49,724 bases of DNA from Nitrospirota bacterium. Lineage in GTDB: Bacteria; Nitrospirota; Nitrospiria; SBBL01; JAADHI01. The translations under genes and the position numbers were made by a program. How positions within the stretch are numbered: position 1 is the stretch's first letter; every line of letters starts with the position of its first letter. The stretch covers positions 1 through 49,724 of the forward strand of contig JAJDBU010000054.1 in assembly GCA_029261195.1 (NCBI GenBank). The letters run 5' to 3'. Below, piece by piece: positions 5,788 through 48,146 of the stretch. The notes below the pieces were generated by a model. That model saw only the letters and a program-made list of their open reading frames with translations, was not told where the DNA came from and did no database searches.

Positions 5788-7266
5788 TTGTCGATAGGTA
5801 CTACCTCCCCTTCTCTTGAATCAGAAGGGATTGCAACTGCGATTGCGGTCCGGGAGCACCTGATTCAGGAAGGTCTTTTCTATTCTAATCAAAGCCCTGA
5901 AGGCACTGCTCAAGCAACACTCCCCTCATTTGGAAATGATACCTGGCGCGTCGCCACAGCACCGTTTTTAATCAGCAAGGAAGAGCATTCCTTTATTGAA
6001 GCTCTCGGGCCTCATCTGTTTTCCTTCTATCAAGCCGCCAATCGTCTCTATTTTGAATCCCTACGGGGCCAGGTTCCAGCTTGGTATGCCGCCTATCTTG
6101 ACCAGGGGAAACCGGCGGCTCTTCTCGAAACGGCTCGAATGAACCGTTTCAAGCAGCGTTTTCCGGGGATTATTCGACCCGATCTGATCCCAGGTGAGGA
6201 CGGCATGATTGCCTCTGAGCTGGACGCTGTTCCCGGAGGCATCGGTTTGAATGCGGCTCTCGCAGAAGCCTACACAACCCACTTAGAAAATGAAAATCCA
6301 GTAATCGGTCTTCGTGACGGGATGCTTGAGGGCCTTGAACGAATGATCCGGGCAAACTCAGATCAAGAGGAGCCGCTCTTAGTCATTGTGGTTTCTGAGG
6401 AATCGAAGTCCTATCGTCCGGAGATGGCCTGGCTTGCAAAGCGCCTGATCGCCCGAGGGCTTCGGACGGTGATTGCAGAGCCTAAAGAGATCCTTTTTTC
6501 GGAAGAAGGGCTCCTGATTGATCTTGACGGGCAGCGGGAAACGATCCACATTCTTTATCGCTTCTTTGAGCTTTTCGACCTTAAAAACGTCCCGAAGTCG
6601 GAATTGATTTTATATGCGGCAAAGAAAAAAAAGGTGGTACTGACCCCGCCACCGAAACCGGCGCTCGAAGAAAAAAGCCTCTTTGCCCTCTTTCATCACC
6701 CTGCTTTAAAGTCCCACTGGCAACGACATCTGAAACAGGAAACGATTGTGGTTCTCGAAAAGCTTTTTCCACAAACCTGGATCATCGACCCGAGTCCCCT
6801 GCCTCCCCATGCGGTCATTCCCGGGCTGACAATGTCGGGTGTGCCGGTGAGCGACTTCCGTCAGCTTGGCTCTGCTTCTCAAAAGGGACGCCAGTACGTG
6901 ATCAAACCTTCCGGTTTTTCAGAGTTAGCCTGGGGGGCGCGCGGGGTTTCTATGGGACACGATCTATCAGAGGAAGACTGGCGAGAAGTGATTGACCAAG
7001 CCCTTGATCGTTTTCCGAGCACGCCTTACATCCTTCAAAAATTTCACAAAGGGAAGAAGGTCTCAATCTCATATTACGATTTCGAGAAAGAACGCATTGT
7101 GGACATGAAGGGACGGGTGCGTCTTTCCCCTTACTATTTTGTCGAAGGAGAGAAGGTGCATCTCGGGGGCATACTCGCCACAGTCTGCGGTCTGGAAAAA
7201 AAATTGATTCACGGCATGGTCGATGCCGTCATGGCGCCCTGTGCGATTTCCGATCATCCACTGTAA
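5788..7266 (+). CDS. circularly permuted ATP-grasp-like protein, probable ligase
   Basis: A 492-residue protein that I cannot name. Residues about 130-155 read RPDLIPGEDGMIASELDAVP followed by GGIGLNAAL, the metal/phosphate-binding pattern (D, E..D..PGG.G) of circularly permuted ATP-grasp proteins. Residues about 195-235 look like a pre-ATP-grasp Rossmann segment (LLVIVVSEESKSYRPEMAWL). A nucleotide-binding strand follows near residue 370 (YVIKPSGFSELAWGARGV), with ILQKFHKGKKVSISYY after it. Such enzymes typically join a carboxylate to an amine using ATP. The start is TTG with GGAG eight bases upstream. It opens a tight operon with glutaredoxin and KamA genes (gaps of 17 and 4 bp), suggesting a joint pathway. 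The substrate is unknown. Confidence 0.65.
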   Translation: MSIGTTSPSLESEGIATAIAVREHLIQEGLFYSNQSPEGTAQATLPSFGNDTWRVATAPFLISKEEHSFIEALGPHLFSFYQAANRLYFESLRGQVPAWYAAYLDQGKPAALLETARMNRFKQRFPGIIRPDLIPGEDGMIASELDAVPGGIGLNAALAEAYTTHLENENPVIGLRDGMLEGLERMIRANSDQEEPLLVIVVSEESKSYRPEMAWLAKRLIARGLRTVIAEPKEILFSEEGLLIDLDGQRETIHILYRFFELFDLKNVPKSELILYAAKKKKVVLTPPPKPALEEKSLFALFHHPALKSHWQRHLKQETIVVLEKLFPQTWIIDPSPLPPHAVIPGLTMSGVPVSDFRQLGSASQKGRQYVIKPSGFSELAWGARGVSMGHDLSEEDWREVIDQALDRFPSTPYILQKFHKGKKVSISYYDFEKERIVDMKGRVRLSPYYFVEGEKVHLGGILATVCGLEKKLIHGMVDAVMAPCAISDHPL

Positions 7267-8711: not shown

Positions 8712-9899
8712 CTATTCCGTACGAATACTGGCGCCGTCTTCTATCGCGTCATTCGGATGGGTAATGACCCACTCCCCTTCGGAAAGTCCGGTAAGGATCT
8801 CTGTGCTGAGGCCGTTTTGATGGCCGATTTCAACTTTCTGTCGAATGGCTTTGTCTGCTTGAACAATAAAGACGGCAAAGCCGTCTTTATATCGAAAAAG
8901 GCTGTTGGTCGGAACTTGCAGGATGTCCTCCCCCTGCCAAAGCACAAAGCGGCTCTCCACACGAAAACCGTCTCCAAGCCGTTCCCAGAGTGGTTTGGGC
9001 GAGCGTATCTCTGAAAGCACCCGAACACGCTGCTCCTCGACACCAAGAGCGGAGGTCTTTGTGAAACCGGCGGGTTCTACAATACGGACACGACCCTCAA
9101 GAGGGGCATTGCCTCCCCATCGCTCAAAAAAGACCTTCATGCCTGGATTGATACGAATCGCATCTGCTGAAAGCACTTCGGTTTCAACCTCCAAGGCGCT
9201 TGGATCGCCGATTTCAATGAGGTTTTGACCCTCCTGAACCACGCCCTCACTTTGATGCATGATCTTCAGTATACGTCCATGCACAGGGGCTTTGATGGAG
9301 ACCAGGGCGGTTTTTCCTGGATTGTCTTCCGCCCCAGAATAGCGCAGAGTGGTTTTCGCCTCTTCCAACTTGAAGCGGGCTACCTCAACAGCAAACTTTG
9401 AGGATTTCAGAGAGGAACGGGCTCGTCGCGCCTTTGCTTCGGCTTCATCAAGGACTTCTTGGGGACTCAAACCTTCGGCTTGGAGCTTTTTAATGCGTTT
9501 CAGTGTCACCATTGCAAGGGTGGCATCTGCCTCACTGGCCCTGACACCCTCTTTCGCTGCACGGAGCGATGCCGACCCTGCGGCCACACGCGCTTCCGCC
9601 CCGGCCCGGCTGCGTGGATCAAGTACCCTGGAGCGTTGCGGCGCCAGTTTCAATAACACTTCGCCGCGTATCACGACATCACCGACATCAAGATTGATAC
9701 GATGGGCAAAACCGCTGACCGGAGCGGAAACGATAAATCGGTCGATCAGGCGTGTTTTTCCCTCTTCCACCACATTGACCTGTAGTGAAGCTCGCCCGAC
9801 CTGCACCATTTCCACAAAGACCGGTCTGGCTTGAAACGAGTAGGCCAGCACTGAAATGACAGCCAGGCCGAATAAAATCCACACAAAACGCTTCGCCAT
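8712..9899 (-). CDS. HlyD/RND-type periplasmic adaptor subunit
   Basis: A 395-residue membrane-fusion protein bridging an inner-membrane transporter and an outer-membrane channel. An N-terminal anchor (about residues 5-22) is followed by the first lipoyl half-motif (FIVSAPVSGFAHRINLDVGD). A long Ala/Glu/Arg-rich alpha-helical hairpin spans about residues 90-190. The second lipoyl half (VSIKAPVHGRILKIMHQSEG) and beta-barrel / membrane-proximal domains complete it. It resembles adaptors that pair with FtsX-type ABC permeases. The matching permease lies about 4.8 kb upstream on the same strand, separated by an unrelated-looking three-gene operon. It converges on kamA. Confidence 0.93.
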   Translation of the reverse strand: MAKRFVWILFGLAVISVLAYSFQARPVFVEMVQVGRASLQVNVVEEGKTRLIDRFIVSAPVSGFAHRINLDVGDVVIRGEVLLKLAPQRSRVLDPRSRAGAEARVAAGSASLRAAKEGVRASEADATLAMVTLKRIKKLQAEGLSPQEVLDEAEAKARRARSSLKSSKFAVEVARFKLEEAKTTLRYSGAEDNPGKTALVSIKAPVHGRILKIMHQSEGVVQEGQNLIEIGDPSALEVETEVLSADAIRINPGMKVFFERWGGNAPLEGRVRIVEPAGFTKTSALGVEEQRVRVLSEIRSPKPLWERLGDGFRVESRFVLWQGEDILQVPTNSLFRYKDGFAVFIVQADKAIRQKVEIGHQNGLSTEILTGLSEGEWVITHPNDAIEDGASIRTE

Positions 9900-10125: not shown

Positions 10126-11676
10126 CTAAAAATTAGCCGTCATAATGAGGCCTGTTACATTTCTCTGATATTCAAAAATAGGAATATTGGAATCATTTCG
10201 ATAATGGAGGTATTGCAATGCAAGATCGATATTTTTCCTCAGGGCTTTGGATGCCATCAAAATAACAACTTTACTGCTATCCTCTCTTTTGCCAGATGAA
10301 CGTTGGTTGATGTTGTCAAAATGCCGTAGCCTTATATACCCTTCAGCGGAGAGCACGATTGATTGTCGAACAGGGTAAACAAGACCGGCCTTGAATCGGA
10401 TACCATCGAAACTCCAGTCATCCTGGGTGGCGCTGGAACCCGCTTTCTCTTTCTCAAAAGCATATTCACTATAGAAAAACTGATTGTCTTGCAGAAAAGT
10501 GTAGTGGGTGAACCGGAGATCGTGTGTACTCACATCCCGATCATCGTTATTCAGGAAAAGAGGTGTGCTGTTCTTAAAGTTGCTGTCCCCAAAAACATAT
10601 TCTAACTCTGAATAATGCTTCTTTGAATGACGTATTTTGAGTTGAGAACCCAGGGCATTCCGAAATAAGAAGGTCTTTCCGCCTAGACTCGCAAATTCAA
10701 GGTCATACTTCAAAAAGACCTGTGTTTTCCGGCCTATTGAGCGGGTTCCACTCAGTGTAATATGGTGGTCCTGAATTTTGAAATCATTTAAATCATTTTC
10801 CTCATGGAAATTTTGAAAGAAGCTGTATGCAATATCTCCCAGCCATCTGTTTTTTGTTGGAAGCCGGTAATTAACACTTAAAAATACGAGCCCAACCAAG
10901 TCTGATTTTTTCTTGATTCCAGCCGCGCTCGCAGAGTTTCCTTCCGGTTCCAGGATGACATTGTCGTCATATTGAAGCCCAATTGATGTGTTGAGTCGCC
11001 ATGGCTTTTTATTTCCAGGTAGGGATTTGATCTGGTCGAGCAAGGCTTCTGAGGTTTGTCCTATGTCCCCATCCGGAGAAAGCGTGACAACGCTTTCAAA
11101 GGCATCACGGGCGGCATTGAAATCCCCCGACTTGTAATGGAAGACGCCCTCCTGAAAACGGGTTTCAACTTCGAGTTTTGGATTGAGCGCAACGGCCTTT
11201 TTTAATTTTTCAGCCCCTGCCTGTCTATTGCCGCGACGGCGCAGAATGATGCCCTGATAATAATAAACCCGGGCCCGAGTGGGATCGATTTGTTCAACCG
11301 TTTTGAAAGACTCCAATGCCTTGCTATCTTCTCCGATCTGGTAATAGAGAACCGCTAAATCAAAGTGTGCGGGGAGGAAGGTTCGGTCGATCATCAGGGC
11401 CTGTTTAAAACTTGTCTCCGCCATTTTTGTCCGATTGGCTCGGGCATGGCTGACACCGACATAATAATGCCCCTCAACACCATTCGGTTTATCTGCAAGA
11501 GATTCATAAAAAAAATCGAGGGCCCGGTCGATATTATTTTTCTTGAGTTCGGCGATTCCTTTTGACAGTTGCCGGTGATAGCTTTCGGCAGCCTTTGCAG
11601 TAGTCAAATTCGTTGCACAAAGGCTCAGAACAATAAAAAACATAAGTGTTTTGATCCTGCTGGTCTCCGGTTGCAT
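10126..11676 (-). CDS. TPR plus outer-membrane beta-barrel protein
   Basis: A 516-residue exported protein. A signal peptide ends at TTAKA (about residue 29). Five or more TPR-like helical repeats (about 30-215) include GHYYVGVSHARANRTKMAE and VYYYQGIILRRRGNRQAG. From about residue 225 (LNTSIGLQYDDNVILEP) the chain turns into alternating amphipathic strands rich in aromatic residues. It ends in a C-terminal Phe (TANF), as expected for a BAM-assembled barrel. TPR-then-barrel architecture resembles Slam-like or polysaccharide-export outer-membrane proteins, but I cannot assign one. The ATG has GGAG five bases upstream. It is the last gene of a CsgG/lipoprotein/barrel operon. Confidence 0.75.
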   Translation of the reverse strand: MQPETSRIKTLMFFIVLSLCATNLTTAKAAESYHRQLSKGIAELKKNNIDRALDFFYESLADKPNGVEGHYYVGVSHARANRTKMAETSFKQALMIDRTFLPAHFDLAVLYYQIGEDSKALESFKTVEQIDPTRARVYYYQGIILRRRGNRQAGAEKLKKAVALNPKLEVETRFQEGVFHYKSGDFNAARDAFESVVTLSPDGDIGQTSEALLDQIKSLPGNKKPWRLNTSIGLQYDDNVILEPEGNSASAAGIKKKSDLVGLVFLSVNYRLPTKNRWLGDIAYSFFQNFHEENDLNDFKIQDHHITLSGTRSIGRKTQVFLKYDLEFASLGGKTFLFRNALGSQLKIRHSKKHYSELEYVFGDSNFKNSTPLFLNNDDRDVSTHDLRFTHYTFLQDNQFFYSEYAFEKEKAGSSATQDDWSFDGIRFKAGLVYPVRQSIVLSAEGYIRLRHFDNINQRSSGKREDSSKVVILMASKALRKNIDLALQYLHYRNDSNIPIFEYQRNVTGLIMTANF

Positions 11677-11760
11677 TCAATCTCCTTTTTCCCCATTTTC
11701 ACAGTAGGCGAAATGACTTTTTGCCGCTTATTTATTACGGTTCCAGCAAAGTTGTACCGC

Positions 11761-13221
11761 TTAAGGGGCCGCCACTTGCCAGGTGGCCAGTGTATTGACC
11801 GTCACATTGAAACTTGTATCCACGATCAATTCAAAAACATTCCAGGTTTTATCCGTCGTCGTCTGTCCAGGCGGTGGTGTGAAAACACTATTCACGCCAT
11901 CCAGGCTTAGCTCAACCCGCGCTGGTGAACTGGTAATCGTGGATGTCCCGCTAAAATGATGAACTGAAAAAGTATAGGTTCCGGGTGTTTCAAATTTCAC
12001 CACAGTGATGATCTCCGGTCCAAATCCAGATGTATTGTCGACATCGAGACGCGCAAAAGGAGAGACAGTCAAACTTCCCTTCTGAGTAAACTCAATATGA
12101 TAATTATTCGGACCCACCAAATGGGCATCTAAATCTCTGGGGTTTGCGCCCCATGTCAGCTTCATTGATAGAGAAACCTCACCGACTGTGAAGGTGGCTT
12201 CACAGGACAATGCGGCTGTCATTGTGACCTGACCATCCTCACAATCAGGGTCTCCTTTCCAGCCGAAAAATTCCGAAAACGTTGAACCTGGATCTGGTGT
12301 GGCAATCAGTTTGACAAGTGAATTTTCAGTGTAGGCGGCGCTACAGGTTGCGCCACAGTTCATCCCGGAGGGCAGGGTGGTGATCCTTCCGCTGCCGGTT
12401 CCTGCTTTTGTAACGGTCAATGGGAAGGTTGCCGGGGAACGCGTGCTCACAGTGAGTGTCGCGGTTTTGAAGACAGTCGGATCCTCATTGCTGCTGGCTT
12501 TGATGACAACATGGATGTGAGGTTCTGCTTCCGGGATAAGGTTCGGAGCTGTGTAGCTTGCCCTTGTCGAGTCTGCTGGATTGGTGACGATACTGCCCGA
12601 ACGGGTGATGGCAGTGTTACCTGAATGAGAGGATACATTTTCAATCGTCCAGGTAAACGAAGGCGCAGTGAGCCCTCCAAGAAATGTCTCACTCAGTGAC
12701 AGAGAGAGGCTTGCACTATTTCCTTCCAATATATTGGATGGGTTTGCAAACAGTGAGATCAATTCTCCCAGGACAATGGTAATTTCTCCGCTTTGCTGAA
12801 AAACGGTTTTTTCCTGTCCTGCCAGGAGAACAGCACCATTACTGTCCAGTAGTTCAGCAATGATATTGACTTCCACCGCTCTTGGGATTTCTAAACTGAA
12901 AGGGATATCGTTTCCGGTCGAGGCTGCGGCTGTCACATTAATGATCTCGATACCATTGGCTTTGACAATACAGCGGACTCCTGCAATTGCGGTCGGGTCA
13001 ATCGCAAAGCTTTTCTGTTTTGCATCCTCTTCGAACAGAAGTCTGACGCCAACAGGAACGGTTCCTTGTGCTTTTGAGTCATTCGGGGGCTCTGTTCCCT
13101 GTCCACAGCCGGTAAGTATCGCCAGCAAACATACGAAGAAAGACCGGAACAGGGCTTGTGATTTGATAGATGAAAACGTCGATTTTTTTTCTTTTAAAAA
13201 TAATAGTTTGTATAAATTCAT
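11761..13221 (-). CDS. lipoprotein with bacterial-repeat and YfaP-like C-terminal domains
   Basis: A 486-residue predicted lipoprotein: lipobox LTGC with Cys39 and a Gly/Pro-rich linker. Ig-like beta domains follow (ISLFANPSNILEGNSASLSL, SFTWTIENVSSHSG). A cysteine-bearing InlB/bacterial-repeat module comes next (KAGTGSGRITTLPSGMNCG; FFGWKGDPDCEDG). A final YfaP/DUF2135-like beta domain has the hallmark LTWGANPRDLDAHLVGPNNY and TYTFSVHHFSG. The start is placed at ATG 13221, because an upstream in-frame ATG (13233) overlaps the GGAGG ribosome site serving 13221. The start codon of the upstream alternative nearly abuts the CsgG-like gene's stop, so translation is probably coupled. It likely sits on the envelope surface or in the periplasm; its ligand is unknown. 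Confidence 0.78.
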   Translation of the reverse strand: MNLYKLLFLKEKKSTFSSIKSQALFRSFFVCLLAILTGCGQGTEPPNDSKAQGTVPVGVRLLFEEDAKQKSFAIDPTAIAGVRCIVKANGIEIINVTAAASTGNDIPFSLEIPRAVEVNIIAELLDSNGAVLLAGQEKTVFQQSGEITIVLGELISLFANPSNILEGNSASLSLSLSETFLGGLTAPSFTWTIENVSSHSGNTAITRSGSIVTNPADSTRASYTAPNLIPEAEPHIHVVIKASSNEDPTVFKTATLTVSTRSPATFPLTVTKAGTGSGRITTLPSGMNCGATCSAAYTENSLVKLIATPDPGSTFSEFFGWKGDPDCEDGQVTMTAALSCEATFTVGEVSLSMKLTWGANPRDLDAHLVGPNNYHIEFTQKGSLTVSPFARLDVDNTSGFGPEIITVVKFETPGTYTFSVHHFSGTSTITSSPARVELSLDGVNSVFTPPPGQTTTDKTWNVFELIVDTSFNVTVNTLATWQVAAP

Positions 13222-13234
13222 GTCATCCTCCATT

Positions 13235-14461
13235 TCAGGGAATATGAATCACAAAATCAATCAGCACGGGTAAGGTCCCTGTCACCACGGGTTCTGTAAT
13301 GATGTTCTCCTGGATAAATGTCAGGCTATTCATCTGAAAAGGGGATACGGTGACAGTGGCAATTGTGGGTAAGGCCCTATCGCCGGAAGCACTGGCGCTT
13401 TCCGCGTTTGACAGAAGGCCTTCCAGATCAAGCGGAACAAGGGGCATCTCAAGAAGTCCTTTTCTGGCTAATGTAAACTCAGGGTCTTCTTCGATGGCTA
13501 AGAAAAAGTTCTGAGAGGCTTTGCGAAATTCTCTCTGATCAAAAAAATCGAGCCCTTCTGAATACAGGCGAAATGCTTTCAGGTTCCTGGTGTGGATTTT
13601 TTCAACGGCTTGCCTTGTTTCGCTGTCAAGGCTTTCGGGGCAATGTCCGATACCGCAGAGAATTTTAAAGACGATTTCTTTTTCCAGTTGAAAAAACGTA
13701 CTGGACTGACCGCTTGCTGTCGGTGAAGCAATAATGTTTCCTTGTTCGGTCTGGATAATGGAAGCGTCGAGCTGTATTTTATTTTCATCCAGATCCATGT
13801 AGCTGCCGGTTGTGACTTTAGCCGCACCCACGAGTTTTCCGAGACGAGGCCCGCTTTTTTTGTCAAAAAGCGGGGTCTTTGCAAGGCTTAACTCATCCAG
13901 AATAGCCTGGATTTGAACCCGCTCGACGACGGTAATGCTTTTGACCTGTGAAAGGTCCGTGATAATGAATTCAACCATCCCTTTTGCGTACACCTCATTT
14001 TCAGGCAAGCCGAGATTTTGAAAGGGATAGACGGCAATGGCATTCGGATTGACTACAGCGGATATCCTCTTTTCTTGCGCAATACGATTTTGTGCATTAA
14101 TTTTCGCCTCATCCTGAATCAGCAGGGTGAGGTATTTTGAAATTTCCCGTTTCTGGTCACTTTCGCTTTCAAGTTGAAGGTAGTTCTGCCATGCCTTTAT
14201 GGTTCCTTGTCTGTTTTTCTCACGAAGGTAACAGAGGCCGAGATAGAGCGCTTGTGAGGCATTCGGGGTCTTTAATGTACTTGTTGACGAAGAGATGATT
14301 TCATCGCAGCGTCTCGACTCGTAAAGGCGTTTTATGTCCACCTCGACTTCCTGAGCCCTGGCGCTATGGCTTGTGAAGGGAAGGAATAGAAACAAGAGTA
14401 AAGTCCATCCAAACAGAAAGAAAATTTTTTCATCCGGTTTCAATATTTTGCAGGGGATCAT
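13235..14461 (-). CDS. CsgG-like exported protein with TPR segments
   Basis: A 408-residue secreted protein. A hydrophobic signal (FLFGWTLLLFLFLPFTSHSARAQ is split here as FLFGWTLLLFLF then PFTSHSARAQ) is followed by a TPR-like region (YLGLCYLREKNRQG). A CsgG/FlgO-like core spans about residues 140-275: AIAVYPFQNLG, MVEFIITDLSQVKSITVVER, and LGKLVGAAKVTTGSYMDL. A second TPR segment is near residue 310 (YSEGLDFFDQREFRKASQNF). Unlike curli CsgG it shows no obvious lipobox, so it may be periplasmic and not pore-forming. GGAG lies upstream of the ATG. It heads an operon with the YfaP-like lipoprotein (gap of a few bases) and the TPR-barrel protein. Confidence 0.75.
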   Translation of the reverse strand: MIPCKILKPDEKIFFLFGWTLLLFLFLPFTSHSARAQEVEVDIKRLYESRRCDEIISSSTSTLKTPNASQALYLGLCYLREKNRQGTIKAWQNYLQLESESDQKREISKYLTLLIQDEAKINAQNRIAQEKRISAVVNPNAIAVYPFQNLGLPENEVYAKGMVEFIITDLSQVKSITVVERVQIQAILDELSLAKTPLFDKKSGPRLGKLVGAAKVTTGSYMDLDENKIQLDASIIQTEQGNIIASPTASGQSSTFFQLEKEIVFKILCGIGHCPESLDSETRQAVEKIHTRNLKAFRLYSEGLDFFDQREFRKASQNFFLAIEEDPEFTLARKGLLEMPLVPLDLEGLLSNAESASASGDRALPTIATVTVSPFQMNSLTFIQENIITEPVVTGTLPVLIDFVIHIP

Positions 14462-14667: not shown

Positions 14668-17031
14668 TCATTCCTTCGTTTTTAATACGGCGACAAGGTC
14701 TAAGTGATCGAGATTCCGGCGGACGATCAGCCCGGACACGAGCGCTGAAATCAGCACCACCGTTGCGGCGAAACCGTAGGTGGAAGGCTCCAGAATGAGC
14801 GGGACTCTGTATAGATCGGTTTGAAGGTTGTCGGAGATGTAGGCACAAAAACCACGCCCGATCAGGAAGCCTAAGGGAATGGCCGCAAAAGTCAGTAAGC
14901 CCAGCTCGCCCAACATGATGTAAGAGATCTCTCCCCGCGTCAGGCCAAGCACCCGCAGGCTGGCAAGTTCCCGACTGCGCTCGGAAAGCATGATGCGTGC
15001 GCTGTTATACACCACGCCAAAGGCGATGGTACTCGCCAGTAATGTGTTGATAAAAGTAAAAATAAGCAGGGTTTCCCCCATGGTGTCATTAAAGCTTTGA
15101 ATGGCGCTTTCTCGGATAATCGTGCCTACAATCTTGGGGCTGGCCTTCAAGGCATCATAAACCGCTGATTGCCGGGCCTTGTCAATGGATAAGTAGGCCC
15201 CCGAAATGGCATCGCCTTCTTGCAAGAGACGATTCAAGGCCGTAAGTTCCATATAGGCCGATACGCCCATGTATTGCTTAACAAAGCCCGTAACAACGAC
15301 TTCCCGGCGCACCCGATTCCCCGTAAGCACTTCAACACCCAGTCGGTCTCCAATTTGAAGGCCCAGAATCTTTCCGAGATGTGCGGTCAGGAGCATGCCG
15401 GAGGCAGGGAGCCGGATGGTCTCAAATTCGGTATTCAGCAGGCGCTGGAGGTCTCCACCCGATTGGCTTCCCCGGATCGCCGTCAGGTAAGAACGATGTT
15501 CAAAGTGCAGCCGAACCGGAACGGCGCGGAAGGGCTCGGCATAGTTGACGCCTGCGATATTTTCCAGGGCATTCATCGCGCTTTGTGATGTCGATTCGGC
15601 AAAGGAGATGGCGATGTCTTCCCGTTGAGAGCGACCAAACTGTACTTCGACCATGAAATCGATGGCATCCTCTTGAAAAGAACCCACCATCATAATGGCG
15701 CAGGCCAGGGCAATGCCGATGACGGACAAGAGGGACTTGACCGGACGTCTCTCGATATGGCGGGCAATCATCCGGCTGGGCTGTCCGAGCCAGCGTTTCA
15801 TGCCAATGCGTTCAAGCAGGGTCTCCCGGTAGATCGTTGGCGGTTCCGGACGCATGGCCTCTGCGGGTGGCAGCAGGGCGGCCTTGCGAACGGCAAAGAA
15901 AGTGCCCAGGAGGGCCGAGCCGATTGCAACTAGAATTGCATTAAGTACCATCGTCGGGCGCAAGGTAAATTCAAGAAAAGGAAAACGGTAAAATTCCATG
16001 TACATGCCACCGAGTAAGTGTCCGAGCTGAATGCCGCCGAAGAATCCGATGATGACCCCGATGAGCACAATCAGGATCACGAATTTTGTGTAATGCAGTC
16101 CGATGTCACGATGGGTATAACCGAAGGCCTTTAAAATGGCGATCTGTTCCCGCTGGGTGCCGACAATACGGCTGACGACGACATTTAACAGAAAGGCGGC
16201 CACACCCAGAAAGATAATGGGGAAAATGATCGCCATTTTTTCCAGTTGCCGAAATTCTTCATTGAGAAGACGATGCGAAAGCTGGCTTTTCCGGCCATAG
16301 GCCCCTAGTCCGCCGTAAGGCCTCAGTAGGGTATCCAGGCGATCAATGACTTCTTTGAGTTGTGCGTTTTCCGTCAGTGTTAAGGAAAGATGGTTGAAGG
16401 CACCCACCATGTCGGTTGCGGCGCTTAAGACATCCCGTTCCATCCAGAGTACAGCGTAACGCTCGAAATCGGGGAAGAAGGCGCCGGGAGCAATCTGGTA
16501 AATGTATGCAGGGGAAAGTGCGATGCCGACGATGTGCAAGCGCTTCCGACGTCCGTTGACGACGACAATGAGACGATCACCGGGTTTAAAAGCGTGGGCC
16601 TCTGCAAAGGCTTCACTGACCACCACTTCGTCGGCCCTTCCCGGTATCGTGAAGCGCCCGGCCCGAAGATAGAGCGTGTTCAGGCCACTGCCTGCCTGAG
16701 CTGAACTGGAAACCAGGCTGCCCGTCACGGGATCGGAAAAGTGCTCCAGTTCTATTTTGACCTCTGCAATGACGGCAGTGGAAATACGATCCACACCGGA
16801 AATTTCTCTAATGCGTTTTTTTAAGGATTCCGGGGCACGCTTCAGGGAGACGAAAGCCTCTGCAAATCGGTAGTCCTGATAAAAAGTCGCCCGAGTGACT
16901 TGCAGCGAATCGAGGGTGCTTCGGGACATGATAAAAGTAGAGATTCCGCCCGCAATGACCAGCGCAATGGCTAAGGCCTGTCCCTTCATCGCCCAGAGGT
17001 CACGCCACAATTTCAGGTCGATGGATTTCAT
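14668..17031 (-). CDS. ABC transporter permease, double FtsX-domain type
   Basis: A 787-residue inner-membrane permease. An N-terminal membrane segment (ALAIALVIAGGISTFIM) is followed by a MacB-like periplasmic domain (about 45-260). The first FtsX bundle covers about 265-395 (IIFLGVAAFLLNVVVSRIVG), then a second membrane segment and periplasmic domain. The second FtsX bundle covers about 655-780 (LIFTFINTLLASTIAFGVVY). Such permeases need a separate ATPase and often an HlyD adaptor, and export lipids, peptides or drugs. The ATPase is missing immediately upstream, where a palindromic repeat begins 41 bp before the ATG, and no clear ribosome site is visible. The HlyD gene downstream and the ATPase at 261-950 are candidate partners. 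Confidence 0.92.
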   Translation of the reverse strand: MKSIDLKLWRDLWAMKGQALAIALVIAGGISTFIMSRSTLDSLQVTRATFYQDYRFAEAFVSLKRAPESLKKRIREISGVDRISTAVIAEVKIELEHFSDPVTGSLVSSSAQAGSGLNTLYLRAGRFTIPGRADEVVVSEAFAEAHAFKPGDRLIVVVNGRRKRLHIVGIALSPAYIYQIAPGAFFPDFERYAVLWMERDVLSAATDMVGAFNHLSLTLTENAQLKEVIDRLDTLLRPYGGLGAYGRKSQLSHRLLNEEFRQLEKMAIIFPIIFLGVAAFLLNVVVSRIVGTQREQIAILKAFGYTHRDIGLHYTKFVILIVLIGVIIGFFGGIQLGHLLGGMYMEFYRFPFLEFTLRPTMVLNAILVAIGSALLGTFFAVRKAALLPPAEAMRPEPPTIYRETLLERIGMKRWLGQPSRMIARHIERRPVKSLLSVIGIALACAIMMVGSFQEDAIDFMVEVQFGRSQREDIAISFAESTSQSAMNALENIAGVNYAEPFRAVPVRLHFEHRSYLTAIRGSQSGGDLQRLLNTEFETIRLPASGMLLTAHLGKILGLQIGDRLGVEVLTGNRVRREVVVTGFVKQYMGVSAYMELTALNRLLQEGDAISGAYLSIDKARQSAVYDALKASPKIVGTIIRESAIQSFNDTMGETLLIFTFINTLLASTIAFGVVYNSARIMLSERSRELASLRVLGLTRGEISYIMLGELGLLTFAAIPLGFLIGRGFCAYISDNLQTDLYRVPLILEPSTYGFAATVVLISALVSGLIVRRNLDHLDLVAVLKTKE

Positions 17032-43085: not shown

Positions 43086-46000
43086 ATGATGGTGACAGGC
43101 AGTGTGCAGAAGAAGCCCGATAGGACATACTCAGGTATTATACCTGGAAGGCTTTTCAAAGGGTTGGAGGCGTTACTCCTATTTTTCTTTGTTTTATTGT
43201 TCCTGCCGTTGAAGGCTCACGCTGGGTTCTGGGAACAGACGGGAGGGCCGGAGGGGGGCAATATACAATCAATTGTCATGGCACCAAACTATGATATTGA
43301 CCAGACGGTTTTTTCATTGGTTGATGGCAATATCTATAAATCGACAGATGGTGGAGAGACATGGTTGCAGGTGTTTGATCATTTTGTACAGAACATCGTT
43401 ATTTCCCCTGACTATTCCAACGATCAGACACTTTTTGCCATATCTGACCCACCGTTTGAGAATACTGCTGTTTACACATCAATTGACGGAGGAATCGCAT
43501 GGTCAAAGATCAGCAACCTTTCTGCTTTTATCAATTTTTCTGAGATAGCGATTTCCCCTTTATTTGCCGTTGACCAGACACTTTTTGCGCAAGGTACCGG
43601 CGGAATGCATAGATCGACTGACGGAGGGGTTACTTGGGTACGAAATGTTTCCACACCTCAACCCATTGGACCTGTTGGAGATTTCAGTTTTTCACCTTCG
43701 TATGCCCAAGATCAGACGATTTTCTCTATCGGGTCAAATAAGGCCTTGATCAAATCCATCGACGGCGGTGTTTCGTGGAGCGTAATTCGCACACTCATGC
43801 TGCCAATCAATGATCCCAAGGTTTTTTCTCTTCGATTGGTTAAACTGTCTCAAAACTATATGGTAGATCAAACCATTTTTTTGAGCGTCAGCGATGGCCG
43901 GTTCAACCCCACCAGGGATGTCGTATATACCTCGACCGACGGAGGAGTTTCCTGGTCCCCAGCAAGTTCCGGTTTAGGTGGTGGTGCTGTACATTACCTC
44001 GCAATATCACCTTCTTACACAAGCGACAGAACTCTCTTTCTTGCCAATTTTTTCGATGTCCCCTATAAATCAACCGATGGCGGTCTGACATGGACACCAA
44101 TCAATACAGGCCTTCCGAATATTCCTACCAAGTTCATCTCTGTTTCACCCGCGTTTCAGACGGACAGAACGGTCTTCGCTGGCACCACCGGTGCTGGAAT
44201 CGTCAAGTCAGTAGACGGCGGAACCAACTGGGTACAAAAAAACTCAGGCATAAAACACGCACTCGTTTTTTCTTCGATAGCGATCTCCCCATTTTATAAG
44301 ACCGACCGGACTATCTTCGCTGGAGCGTATCCCGAAGTGGCTAAATCTACAAATGGAGGGGATGCATGGCCTTCGATAAATACCGGTCTCCCTAGCGGTG
44401 CAGTCACTGAACAACTGCTTGTATCCCCCGCATATCAAACCGATCAAACGGCATTCGCGATCATTCAGGAAGCTGATTTTGGCTTCACAAGTAGTACGCC
44501 GATCACTGCCTACAAGACCGTTGACAGCGGTCAATCTTGGGTTCTATCCAATTCAGGGCTGCCGACGACCCCTTCACCCACTGGAGGTGGGTTCGGGTGT
44601 TTAGCCTTTTCACCCTCTTACAAGAATGACCAAACGGTTTTCTTCTTCGGATGGAATGGAGTCTTCAGGGCTGTGGATAGTGGGGCATCGTGGATCAAGG
44701 TAAATAATATAGGATTTGGAGGAACTTCTTGCCACAGTAAAATTGGGATGTCTCCGTCTTATGCCACCGACCAGACCATCTTTGCCAGTGACCGTGGAGG
44801 TGTGTGGAAGTCGGCTGATGCTGGAATTTCCTTTGCTCCAATCAATAACGGTCTGCCTGCCAGCCTTTCAAACACCTCATTGGTTGTTTCGCCGTCATAT
44901 GGGACTGACCAGATCTTATTTGTATTGAGGGGCCTAAAGCTTTTTAAATCTACCGATGAAGGTTTATCCTGGACGCTTTCGGCAACCTTCCCTTCACTTA
45001 TCCCGACCGATTCCAATATAAATGTAATTGCAATTTCCCCCGCATATTCAAGGGATAGAACCCTTTTTGGAGCAGATCTCAAGCCACACTCAGGTGGACG
45101 GACTAGATATATATGGAAATCTGTTGATGACGGTGTAACATGGGAGCGCATTCTGACGCCTCTTCACAACATCCCGTCGGCTTGGTCTCCGCCCGCTATC
45201 CGTCTTAGCTCTATGGAATTCTCTCCAGGCTACCCCTGCGATGGCACGCTCTTTTTTGGCACTGGAGAAGACGGCGTCTGGAAGTACATTGATACCGAGG
45301 CCATCAGTGCGTGCCGACCGCCGGGCATTACCTCCCTCTCCACAACCTCCGGAGCCTCAGGGGATGCCGTCACGATCACCGGTACCAACTTCGTGGCCAA
45401 CCAGGGAACCAGCACCGTCACCATCGGCGGGGCAGCGGCGACCGTCACCAGTTGGAGCGACACGCAGATCATCGTCAGCGTTCCGGCGGGCGCAACCACC
45501 GGGCCCCTCGTCGTGACGGTAAACGGCGTTCCGGTTACCGCTCCACAGGACTTTACCGTCCTGCAACCTCGATTTACGCTTTCCATCGCGCCGAATGTGC
45601 AGACCGTGGCCAGCGGCGGATCAGCCGCCTTCACGCTTTCCCTGACAAGCATTGATGGGTTTAATCAGCCTGTTGGATTCGACAATCCTTTAGGGCTGCC
45701 ACCCGGAGCAACAGCAAATTACAGCCCCGCGACCGTCGTTCCGCTTGGAGATGCGACCCTGACGATCCAGACCGTCCCCACGACTCCACCCGGCTCCTAT
45801 CCCCTGACAATCAACGCAAACGGCGGGGGCGCGGGTGATGTGAAGGGTGTGACGTTGGAGGTGACGGCTCCAGTTCCATCCCCTACAGACACCGACGGAG
45901 ATGGCGTTCTTAACCATTTAGACAACTGCCCAGAAGATCTAAATCCAGACCAGCAAGATATTGATGAGGATGGGCGTGGTGATATATGCGATTCTGATAT

Positions 46001-48146
46001 TGATGGAGATGGTCTGACAAACACAGAAGAGGCAACAGCAGGGACAGAGTCAAATAAGTGGGATACCGACGGAGATCATTTGTCGGATGGCCTAGAGGTA
46101 AAGGGTGTGCCCCATGAAAATAGTGAGTTCCTGTTGGATCTTAAAGGTATGGGCGCAGATCCGCTTCATAAGGATATTTTTGTGGAGGTGGATTATATGA
46201 TGCTTCCAGCCAACTGTCCTCCTGGTGAAAAATGTTCTACCCCTCACTCGCATAAACCCTACGATGAAGCAATCCAGAAGGTTGTCGACGCATTTGCAAA
46301 GGCTCCACTGTACGATGCTGACGGCAAACTCATTAACAATCCTGATGGTACTCCCGGTATCAGACTGCATGTAGACAATGGAAGAAATGCCTTGCTCAAT
46401 TATCCGGGAGATGTATCGAGAAAGTGGGGTGATTTAAGTCAATCAGGGATCATAGCGGAGAAAGAAATTCTTGGAATACAACAGAACGAGACCGTAAGTT
46501 ATGTGAAGAACCAATGCGTGGATACTACCGGTATAACTTGGTGGGAAAGAATACGTAAAGATTTTAACGAAAAAAAGCAGCTTGATAAGTCTCGTCAAAA
46601 AGTATTTCACTACGTTATCTTTTCGCATGATACAGGTGTTTATGAATTTGATCCAAAAAGTAATAAATGTGTTCTCAAACTATCTGGTGGGTTATCACAT
46701 GTACCTGCAAGTGATTTTATCGTCTCACTTGGCTCCCATGCCAATGACAAGTCTGAAGGGTCCATTGATCAACAAGCTGGTACATTTATGCATGAGTTAG
46801 GGCACAATCTTGGGCTTAAACATGGAGGACAAGATGAGGTCAACTACAAACCTAATTATCTGAGTGTGATGAATTACAGCTTCCAGGTGTCTGGTGTCTA
46901 TACTCCTAAGCGGTTACATGATTATTCCAGGTTTGGACAGAACGAACTTCCAGATCTTATTGAATTCCGCCTTGATGAAAGCATGGGGTTGGCTCCGAAA
47001 ATCGGCAAACTTGATGAGTACAGGACAGTTTACTACGGCCAAAAATGTACAACAGGAATACAACTTCCTGGAGGCGCTACTCCCATACAAGGGTCTGCAT
47101 TGTCTCCAAAAATTAAAGGTTGGATTGATTGGGATTGCGATGGAATTGTTGATCCTCCTTTACCTCTTCCTTTATCTATACCTACAACTGTTTCTTCTAC
47201 CTCCGTTGATATTAATAAAGATAATGGAACGACTATACTCCATTCCTACAACGACTGGGCAGACCTGAAATTCGAAGGGGATCTGAGCAGACCCATTGGC
47301 AGATCAGCAGGATCAGGGCTGCCGGTTTTACAACCAAGTTCCCCGCCTCCGGTAGAACTAACCCCGGAAGAAGATGCCCTGATTCCAAAACTTTTTGCTG
47401 TACTTGTGAGCAATCCAGGAAACCAGATCTTGCCGCAGGGTAAATCGACAACCTTCCTTTTTAAAATCATAAACAAAGGCGTGAAACCGGACAGCTACAC
47501 CCTTACAGCCACGTCGAGCCGAGGCTGGAGCAACATGGGGGGGATGCCGCCATCTGTGAGCCTCCTACCGGGCGAGGAATTTATTTTCGAGGTTCAGACA
47601 ACGGTGCCTTCCAACGCCGCAAACGGGGATACCGATGATCTCACGATTCGGGCAGACAGCACCGGAAGCTCAGGCCTGCTCGACCTCAGTACGGTGACGA
47701 TTACAGCATTTGACGGAAATCCCCCCACGATCACCGCCTCGGTTTCTCCGCCACCGGATGCCAGTGGGGCACACAACACCGACGTAACGGTCACTTTCAT
47801 CTGTGCCGATGCCGAATCAGGCATCGCAAGTTGCACGCCACCCGCCACCGTCACCACCAACGGTACGGGACAAGTGATCACCGGCACAGCAGTCGATCTG
47901 GCCGGAAACACCGCCACCACCTCGGTCACCCTGAACATCGACAAGACCTCACCCACTATGAAGGGTGACCTCAACGCCGACGGCTGCATCGACCGGGGCG
48001 ATTACCGAATTTTGATTACTGACATTCGCAACAGACCACCGAATGACCCCGCCCATGACCTCAACGGGGATGGTCGGGTCAACGTCGCAGATGCGCGGAC
48101 GCTTATCCGCCTGTTCACGAATCCAAGAGGCGCGCCTTGTCCATAG
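43086..48146 (+). CDS. secreted multidomain metzincin protease with propeller repeats and dockerin
   Basis: A 1686-residue exported protein. A signal peptide ends at LKAHA (about residue 46). Fourteen repeats follow to about residue 740, each with SPxYxxDxTxF and most with an Asp-box S.DGG..W, as in sialidase/sortilin-type beta-propellers. Then come an IPT/TIG domain (about 745-825), an Ig-like beta domain and thrombospondin type-3 calcium repeats (about 935-1000; DTDGDG, DIDGDG). The peptidase domain has HELGHNLGLKHG at about 1236-1247 (HExxHxxGxxH zinc site) with the Met-turn SVMNYS at about 1262. NEW3/CARDB-like beta domains and a C-terminal dockerin type I (about 1627-1685; DLNADG and DLNGDG loops) complete it. 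Either ATG, 43086 or 43089, fits CGGAGG. The next gene encodes a cohesin-like PEP-CTERM protein. Confidence 0.88.
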   Translation: MMVTGSVQKKPDRTYSGIIPGRLFKGLEALLLFFFVLLFLPLKAHAGFWEQTGGPEGGNIQSIVMAPNYDIDQTVFSLVDGNIYKSTDGGETWLQVFDHFVQNIVISPDYSNDQTLFAISDPPFENTAVYTSIDGGIAWSKISNLSAFINFSEIAISPLFAVDQTLFAQGTGGMHRSTDGGVTWVRNVSTPQPIGPVGDFSFSPSYAQDQTIFSIGSNKALIKSIDGGVSWSVIRTLMLPINDPKVFSLRLVKLSQNYMVDQTIFLSVSDGRFNPTRDVVYTSTDGGVSWSPASSGLGGGAVHYLAISPSYTSDRTLFLANFFDVPYKSTDGGLTWTPINTGLPNIPTKFISVSPAFQTDRTVFAGTTGAGIVKSVDGGTNWVQKNSGIKHALVFSSIAISPFYKTDRTIFAGAYPEVAKSTNGGDAWPSINTGLPSGAVTEQLLVSPAYQTDQTAFAIIQEADFGFTSSTPITAYKTVDSGQSWVLSNSGLPTTPSPTGGGFGCLAFSPSYKNDQTVFFFGWNGVFRAVDSGASWIKVNNIGFGGTSCHSKIGMSPSYATDQTIFASDRGGVWKSADAGISFAPINNGLPASLSNTSLVVSPSYGTDQILFVLRGLKLFKSTDEGLSWTLSATFPSLIPTDSNINVIAISPAYSRDRTLFGADLKPHSGGRTRYIWKSVDDGVTWERILTPLHNIPSAWSPPAIRLSSMEFSPGYPCDGTLFFGTGEDGVWKYIDTEAISACRPPGITSLSTTSGASGDAVTITGTNFVANQGTSTVTIGGAAATVTSWSDTQIIVSVPAGATTGPLVVTVNGVPVTAPQDFTVLQPRFTLSIAPNVQTVASGGSAAFTLSLTSIDGFNQPVGFDNPLGLPPGATANYSPATVVPLGDATLTIQTVPTTPPGSYPLTINANGGGAGDVKGVTLEVTAPVPSPTDTDGDGVLNHLDNCPEDLNPDQQDIDEDGRGDICDSDIDGDGLTNTEEATAGTESNKWDTDGDHLSDGLEVKGVPHENSEFLLDLKGMGADPLHKDIFVEVDYMMLPANCPPGEKCSTPHSHKPYDEAIQKVVDAFAKAPLYDADGKLINNPDGTPGIRLHVDNGRNALLNYPGDVSRKWGDLSQSGIIAEKEILGIQQNETVSYVKNQCVDTTGITWWERIRKDFNEKKQLDKSRQKVFHYVIFSHDTGVYEFDPKSNKCVLKLSGGLSHVPASDFIVSLGSHANDKSEGSIDQQAGTFMHELGHNLGLKHGGQDEVNYKPNYLSVMNYSFQVSGVYTPKRLHDYSRFGQNELPDLIEFRLDESMGLAPKIGKLDEYRTVYYGQKCTTGIQLPGGATPIQGSALSPKIKGWIDWDCDGIVDPPLPLPLSIPTTVSSTSVDINKDNGTTILHSYNDWADLKFEGDLSRPIGRSAGSGLPVLQPSSPPPVELTPEEDALIPKLFAVLVSNPGNQILPQGKSTTFLFKIINKGVKPDSYTLTATSSRGWSNMGGMPPSVSLLPGEEFIFEVQTTVPSNAANGDTDDLTIRADSTGSSGLLDLSTVTITAFDGNPPTITASVSPPPDASGAHNTDVTVTFICADAESGIASCTPPATVTTNGTGQVITGTAVDLAGNTATTSVTLNIDKTSPTMKGDLNADGCIDRGDYRILITDIRNRPPNDPAHDLNGDGRVNVADARTLIRLFTNPRGAPCP

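Follow-up and report, generated by a model that had tools for sequence, protein, structure and literature searches.

Here we describe a three-gene unit in a 49,724-nucleotide stretch of DNA from a Nitrospirota bacterium; the whole stretch is referred to as the window. We put the probability at roughly 0.55 that this trio is a cassette for the export of surface lipoproteins, working in the manner of Slam/T11SS. In the best reading of the data the cargo is recognised by a conserved N-terminal domain (N-dom) rather than by a C-terminal beta-barrel. The unit is composed of a secreted CsgG-like partner, a lipoprotein that is the presumed cargo, and a TPR protein with an outer-membrane barrel that is the presumed exporter. 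The features are the following.

13235..14461, minus strand: CsgG-like/TPR secreted partner, 408 aa (ORF and Pfam CsgG; paralogue in the same genome)
13238..13279, minus strand: tail strand at the C-terminus of the partner, residues 395-408 (pattern common to FecR-type partners)
11761..13233, minus strand: lipoprotein, presumed cargo, 490 aa counted from the ATG at 13233 (lipobox LTGC, Cys43)
12742..13107, minus strand: N-dom, about 120 aa, directly after the lipidated Cys (own HMM, AF2 and a 34-row alignment; seven predicted strands)
13033..13062, minus strand: strand A, the first strand of N-dom, residues 58-67 (AF2; similar to the partner tail)
12187..12378, minus strand: divergent InlB B-repeat (PF18998), part of the variable payload (Pfam)
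10126..11676, minus strand: presumed exporter, 516 aa, with TPRs and an outer-membrane beta-barrel (Pfam, AF2 and fold matches)
11026..11595, minus strand: periplasmic TPR domain, residues 28-217 (Pfam and AF2)
10129..11001, minus strand: 14-stranded barrel, residues 226-516, with terminal Phe (AF2; 45% identical paralogue)

An earlier note on this DNA described three consecutive minus-strand genes, the first two nearly abutting. The ORFs lie in this arrangement, and a single base separates the stop codon of the CsgG-like gene (13237-13235) from the ATG of the lipoprotein gene (13233). A second ATG at 13221 is the likelier, and may be the true, start of the lipoprotein because GGAGG stands five bases before it. 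The gap between the lipoprotein and barrel genes is 84 bp. A scan for promoters and terminators gave a result no better than that obtained with shuffled sequences.

The trio is flanked in the window by a MacA-like adaptor (8712-9899, minus strand) and an FtsX-like permease (14668-17031, minus strand). A single operon of the trio with these ABC genes was ruled out, because in three relatives (G001, G014 and G015) the genes for ATPase, permease and adaptor lie directly side by side. The trio therefore sits in the window as a block. The ATPase orthologue (82%) is located on another contig, at G000:C24:3428-4138, and no direct repeat joining both junctions of the trio was listed. Elsewhere in the window (43086-48146, plus strand) is a gene for a 1686-aa protein with Sortilin-Vps10/BNR, TIG, thrombospondin type 3 and metallopeptidase-like matches and a C-terminal match to type I dockerin.

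The earlier note suggested a search for conservation of the neighbourhood, and the trio does recur, with two copies in its own genome and others in relatives. The second CsgG-lipoprotein-barrel set of the genome is on another contig and carries a different payload; the CsgG-like paralogues are 46-49% identical and the barrels 45%. Upstream of this second trio (L009, 2085-7474), a gene that reads as kinase-like, a protein of TPR/CsgG-like type and a CsgG-like lipoprotein stand in a row, which makes a stack of several CsgG-fold proteins. Scanning named genomes yielded 79 loci, of which 77 have a barrel ORF. They are mostly from Nitrospirota (Manganitrophus, Troglogloeales, Magnetobacterium and others), with some from Geobacteraceae, Desulfobacterales, Nitrospinota, Omnitrophota and Pseudomonadota.

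Within three genes of the barrel and on the same strand, a partner is encoded at 64/77 loci (FecR type at 59 and CsgG type at 5) and an N-dom lipoprotein at 38/77. Many of the 13 loci that have neither partner type end at a contig edge. At two loci (L107 and L148) the set of barrel, FecR and N-dom is present in tandem, twice each. Among 58 relatives the barrel is found in 25 genomes, N-dom in 23 and both in 19 (Fisher p 1.4e-6, kinship not controlled). The barrel genomes that have no N-dom match (6/25) all belong to family f6. By a count from two match lists, 27 of the 41 N-dom genes are about 10 kb or less from a barrel, and for several of the other 14 the contig is short or the genome incomplete.

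The earlier description of a TPR protein with a C-terminal barrel ending in Phe agrees with the AF2 model (59 homologous rows; mean pLDDT 93.4, pTM 0.67), which has TPR helices up to residue 217 and then 14 predicted strands between residues 226 and 515; the last residue is Phe. Fold matches of the barrel protein include TPR proteins, the porins CymA and OmpG, and the TPR-barrels BcsC and PelB, and the alignment to CymA has a Z of 22.4 over 274 residues with an rmsd of 3.8. Conservation within the barrel peaks at strands 1, 3 and 14 and at loops 1-2, 3-4, 5-6 and 13-14, which would fit a putative working seam between the first and the last strand.

By sequence the barrel family is a borderline member of SlipAM (PF04575). 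Matches to SlipAM were found for 9/18 barrel rows at E<=0.1 and for 13/59 full-length rows at E<=0.01. BBP2_2 matches 6/18 barrel rows and 17/59 full-length rows, the latter being more than for SlipAM. Family barrels in eight genomes pass the curated SlipAM cut-off (G002, G004, G006, G008, G009, G019, G039 and G000, the last with the paralogue from the genome of the window at 23.3 bits against a cut-off of 22). The window barrel itself has no SlipAM match, even at E 0.1. A profile comparison with two strong SlipAM rows gave a probability of 42.7 and an E of 2.5e-4. Two strong SlipAM proteins of a different kind (family f13, same class) were observed at L215 and L216 (G042 and G045), with E values of 9e-25 and 1.2e-23.

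The trio shares with Slam/T11SS (DUF560, SlipAM PF04575) a TPR domain followed by a barrel, predicted here to have 14 strands, and a neighbouring SPII lipoprotein, and several of the family barrels, although not that of the window, score above the SlipAM cut-off. The earlier note knew of no described system with this exact composition. Slam/T11SS is a precedent of the same kind, of which the trio would be a divergent relative. There are three differences. The cargo of the cassette has a conserved N-terminal domain, whereas described cargo has a C-terminal 8-stranded barrel (PMC12282271). The cassette includes an extra FecR or CsgG partner with a common tail. It is found mainly in Nitrospirota, whereas the available text of PMC12282271 and PMC8406197 treats Proteobacteria; FecR and Nitrospira are absent from the main text of both. 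For distant T11SS barrels, known cargo barrel domains are described as rare, and novel targeting domains may exist (PMC12282271, available text). No description of a unit of barrel, partner and N-dom lipoprotein was found in the accessible parts of the literature searched. A solved Slam structure, which may exist, is absent from the sequence matches and from the fold matches listed.

A TPR-barrel could also serve exopolysaccharide export, as in PelB-PelC, BcsC and PgaA. The barrel would then be a polysaccharide porin, the CsgG-like or FecR protein a periplasmic adaptor and the lipoprotein a matrix protein. In keeping with this, the top Foldseek match of the whole barrel model is BcsC (9b8a, E 5.6e-11), PelB (9h80) is also listed, and ORFs downstream of the copy on contig C60 resemble, by reading, sugar-biosynthesis and ABC-2 export genes. 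We nevertheless regard polysaccharide export as unlikely. The barrels of PgaA, BcsC and PelB have 16 strands (PMC12141448, available text) and that of the trio is predicted to have 14; the same distinction of 14 versus 16 strands has been drawn for the DUF560/Slam barrel (PMC8406197, available text). The partial SlipAM membership of the family, the linkage of a cargo domain to the barrel across lineages, and the finding of no glycan synthase among 20 window proteins scanned also argue against it.

For the lipoprotein, the earlier note proposed a bacterial-repeat and a YfaP-like domain. The lipobox and the repeat (PF18998 at residues 286-349, E 1.7e-7) are present, but the YfaP/DUF2135 assignment of the C-terminus was not confirmed: the 142-aa segment has no Pfam match at E<=1, and a scan of the whole protein gave none for this part either. 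The model of the 448-aa mature lipoprotein has a mean pLDDT of 50.6 and is poor outside N-dom, so that the payload fold is not judgeable from it. For N-dom itself, at mature residues 16-113, the model shows seven strands, and its pLDDT there is about 70-94. Our N-dom profile, an HMM built from 15 seeds, also found non-seed members adjoining barrels. N-dom has no Pfam family among the 35 rows scanned. The two lipoproteins of the same genome show no significant likeness in pairwise BLASTP (E 0.95), and their common N-dom is visible by profile only.

Lipoproteins with N-dom range from 133 to 1712 residues in length. The payload may be absent (133-134 aa; L150 and L143) or consist of fn3 arrays, B-repeat, DUF1565, beta-helix or CarboxypepD_reg, and these variable payloads look adhesin-like from their sequences. 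The Pfam TbpBBD/lipoprotein C-type C-terminal barrel is absent, by sequence, from the window lipoprotein and from eight other whole N-dom lipoproteins. At L051 a transposase-like ORF (6240-6899; REP-associated type, by reading) lies between the 1712-aa N-dom lipoprotein and the barrel. Fold matches of N-dom are weak and mixed (Z <=8.5) and include fimbrillins at 7.9, FnIII and starch-binding domains. N-dom is shaped like the beta-sandwich of the type V fimbrillins (FimA), although the match to 6jzk (Z 7.9, rmsd 3.2, 98 residues aligned) is in the unspecific range and tied with unrelated rows. In type V pili, assembly proceeds by strand exchange.

The partner in the window had been noted as an exported protein of CsgG fold. 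This is consistent with a Pfam match to PF03783 above the cut-off (28.5 against 20.8 bits; residues 141-227, E 1.1e-6), which spans only profile positions 11-104 of 210, and with a type-I signal peptide, by reading; by reading there is no lipobox. Partners are of the CsgG type in the lineage of the window and of the FecR type in most other lineages. The two types have no domain in common, yet they end in the same strand-like tail, often after PPIxQQP, as in TTPVTIDIIFPK (FecR, L131) and TTVPVEIQIDFP (CsgG type, L082).

The tail was scored with one fixed pattern in 76 partner rows, of which 69 belong to named loci and the other 7 to the window and further loci (L063 and L109 are one contig, counted twice). 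It is present in 35/43 complete partners that have N-dom within two genes (2 more are truncated) and in 8/22 complete partners without N-dom nearby (9 more are truncated). Among other ORFs of the named loci the pattern was found in 25/948. The Fisher p is 6e-4 for partners with versus without N-dom and 1.6e-40 for the comparison to other ORFs, with kinship not controlled in either. Several of the eight pattern misses near N-dom, such as those at L148 and L068, show a tail by eye.

In 30 FecR loci from relatives the tail was found in 0/19 complete proteins away from barrels. Six complete proteins were beside a barrel: three pass the pattern, two look similar and one has no tail (L211, in G046, a genome without N-dom). 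The remaining five loci are open-ended or misframed. Geomonas limicola Red745 (L120) carries the barrel and a FecR protein with the tail, and the adjacent 637-aa protein there has no match to the N-dom profile. In Manganitrophaceae, which have both the barrel and lipoproteins with N-dom, no partner with a tail was seen beside them in the stretches examined, and the tail is therefore not universal; the CsgG-type protein at L076, from this family, has no tail. In two very long ORFs of 731 and 1511 aa (L152, 10864-13059, and L153, 10923-15458) a FecR domain adjoins the barrel with no N-dom, and at these two loci a cargo may begin with the FecR domain itself.

In a tree of 82 barrels all seven CsgG-partnered barrels are inside one 100/100 clade of ten, which lies among FecR-partnered barrels. 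The other three barrels of this clade are on contigs cut near the barrel. The clade thus indicates that the fold of the partner was swapped and the tail kept. Because FecR partners also occur in other phyla, it is simplest to assume that CsgG replaced FecR once; this direction depends on midpoint rooting of the barrel tree. The persistence of the tail through a change of fold suggests that the tail is the part that does the work.

The tail is similar in sequence to strand A of N-dom; this is a hint and not a proof. In the window GTLPVLIDF of the tail aligns with GTVPVGVRL of strand A, the top-scoring of 117 stretches. The mean likeness across 39 pairs is 8.4, against 4.6 for shuffles that keep the pattern of hydrophobic alternation, none of which scored as high (0/2000). 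Permutation of the pairs reached the cognate mean in 19/5000 cases. The likeness is partly generic, as strand A equals or exceeds the best other stretch of the same pattern in only 20/39 pairs. When the test was first run, on 34 pairs, the stretch near the last strand was often the best match to the tail. Kinship of the loci was not controlled in these tests.

The partner and the lipoprotein could instead be parts of an envelope sensor that faces the periplasm. The FecR/CsgG-type protein and the N-dom lipoprotein would sense the state of the surface and signal to a CHASE2 cyclase, and the barrel would be only an anchor. Five ORFs of about 620-670 aa that follow the unit were scanned; four encode CHASE2-guanylate cyclases (L091, L104, L120 and L093) and one an ABC transporter (L151). 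As in many of the FecR-type loci, FecR stands beside a CHASE2 sensor in the BiofilmReg operon, which is composed of a LysM-FecR protein and a CHASE2 kinase; no TPR-barrel or lipoprotein cargo is described there in the available text (PMC5192318). Against this, the payloads look adhesin-like, and no CHASE2 gene was seen beside either copy in the genome of the window among the ORFs scanned. A sensor thus seems improbable.

All functional evidence is comparative, and the genes might be co-inherited with no joint function. This is more doubtful still, given two copies in one genome and tandem copies elsewhere, a partner that was swapped with its tail kept, and the position of the trio as a block between a permease and an adaptor that are contiguous in three relatives. 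Curli-like secretion, with the CsgG-like protein itself as the pore, is very improbable: the Pfam CsgG match is above the cut-off, but it covers 94/210 profile positions only, the protein lacks the lipobox, FecR takes its place elsewhere, no curli-type neighbour is among the 20 window proteins scanned, and CsgG similarity in sequence does not imply a curli pore.

The best-supported reading remains that the barrel exports or displays its neighbouring lipoprotein, as the earlier note had proposed. The linkage, the TPR-barrel of 14 strands, the partial SlipAM membership and the cargo N-dom shared between variable payloads all point this way, but export itself, like the direction of transport and the surface location, is a part that we infer. 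In such a Slam-like cassette the Lol route would bring the lipoprotein to the outer membrane, N-dom would be recruited by the TPR domain, and the barrel would pass the payload outwards to the surface, where the lipid would anchor it. The partner would be a periplasmic helper that maintains the export competence of the cargo or uses the tail to pass it on. The tail may dock by beta-strand pairing, either at the strand-A site of N-dom or at a site of the exporter that reads strand A.

A more specific version of this cassette can be proposed tentatively, and we hold it to be considerably less probable than the general one. It would be a T11SS-like exporter with a donor-strand helper of its own. 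In the swappable FecR- or CsgG-fold protein, the C-terminal strand would mimic the first strand of the cargo N-dom, keep N-dom open or displace that strand, and hand the cargo over to the TPR-barrel. N-dom would then be an export signal of a new kind, serving surface lipoproteins.

N-dom is a concrete candidate for a targeting domain. It is compact and N-terminal, is fused to many payloads, and accompanies barrels in Nitrospirota as well as in a few further phyla. The partner, which keeps its tail through a change of fold, is a candidate for an accessory protein. If the cassette works as proposed, Slam-type export would be extended well beyond Proteobacteria and a modular display tag would be gained.
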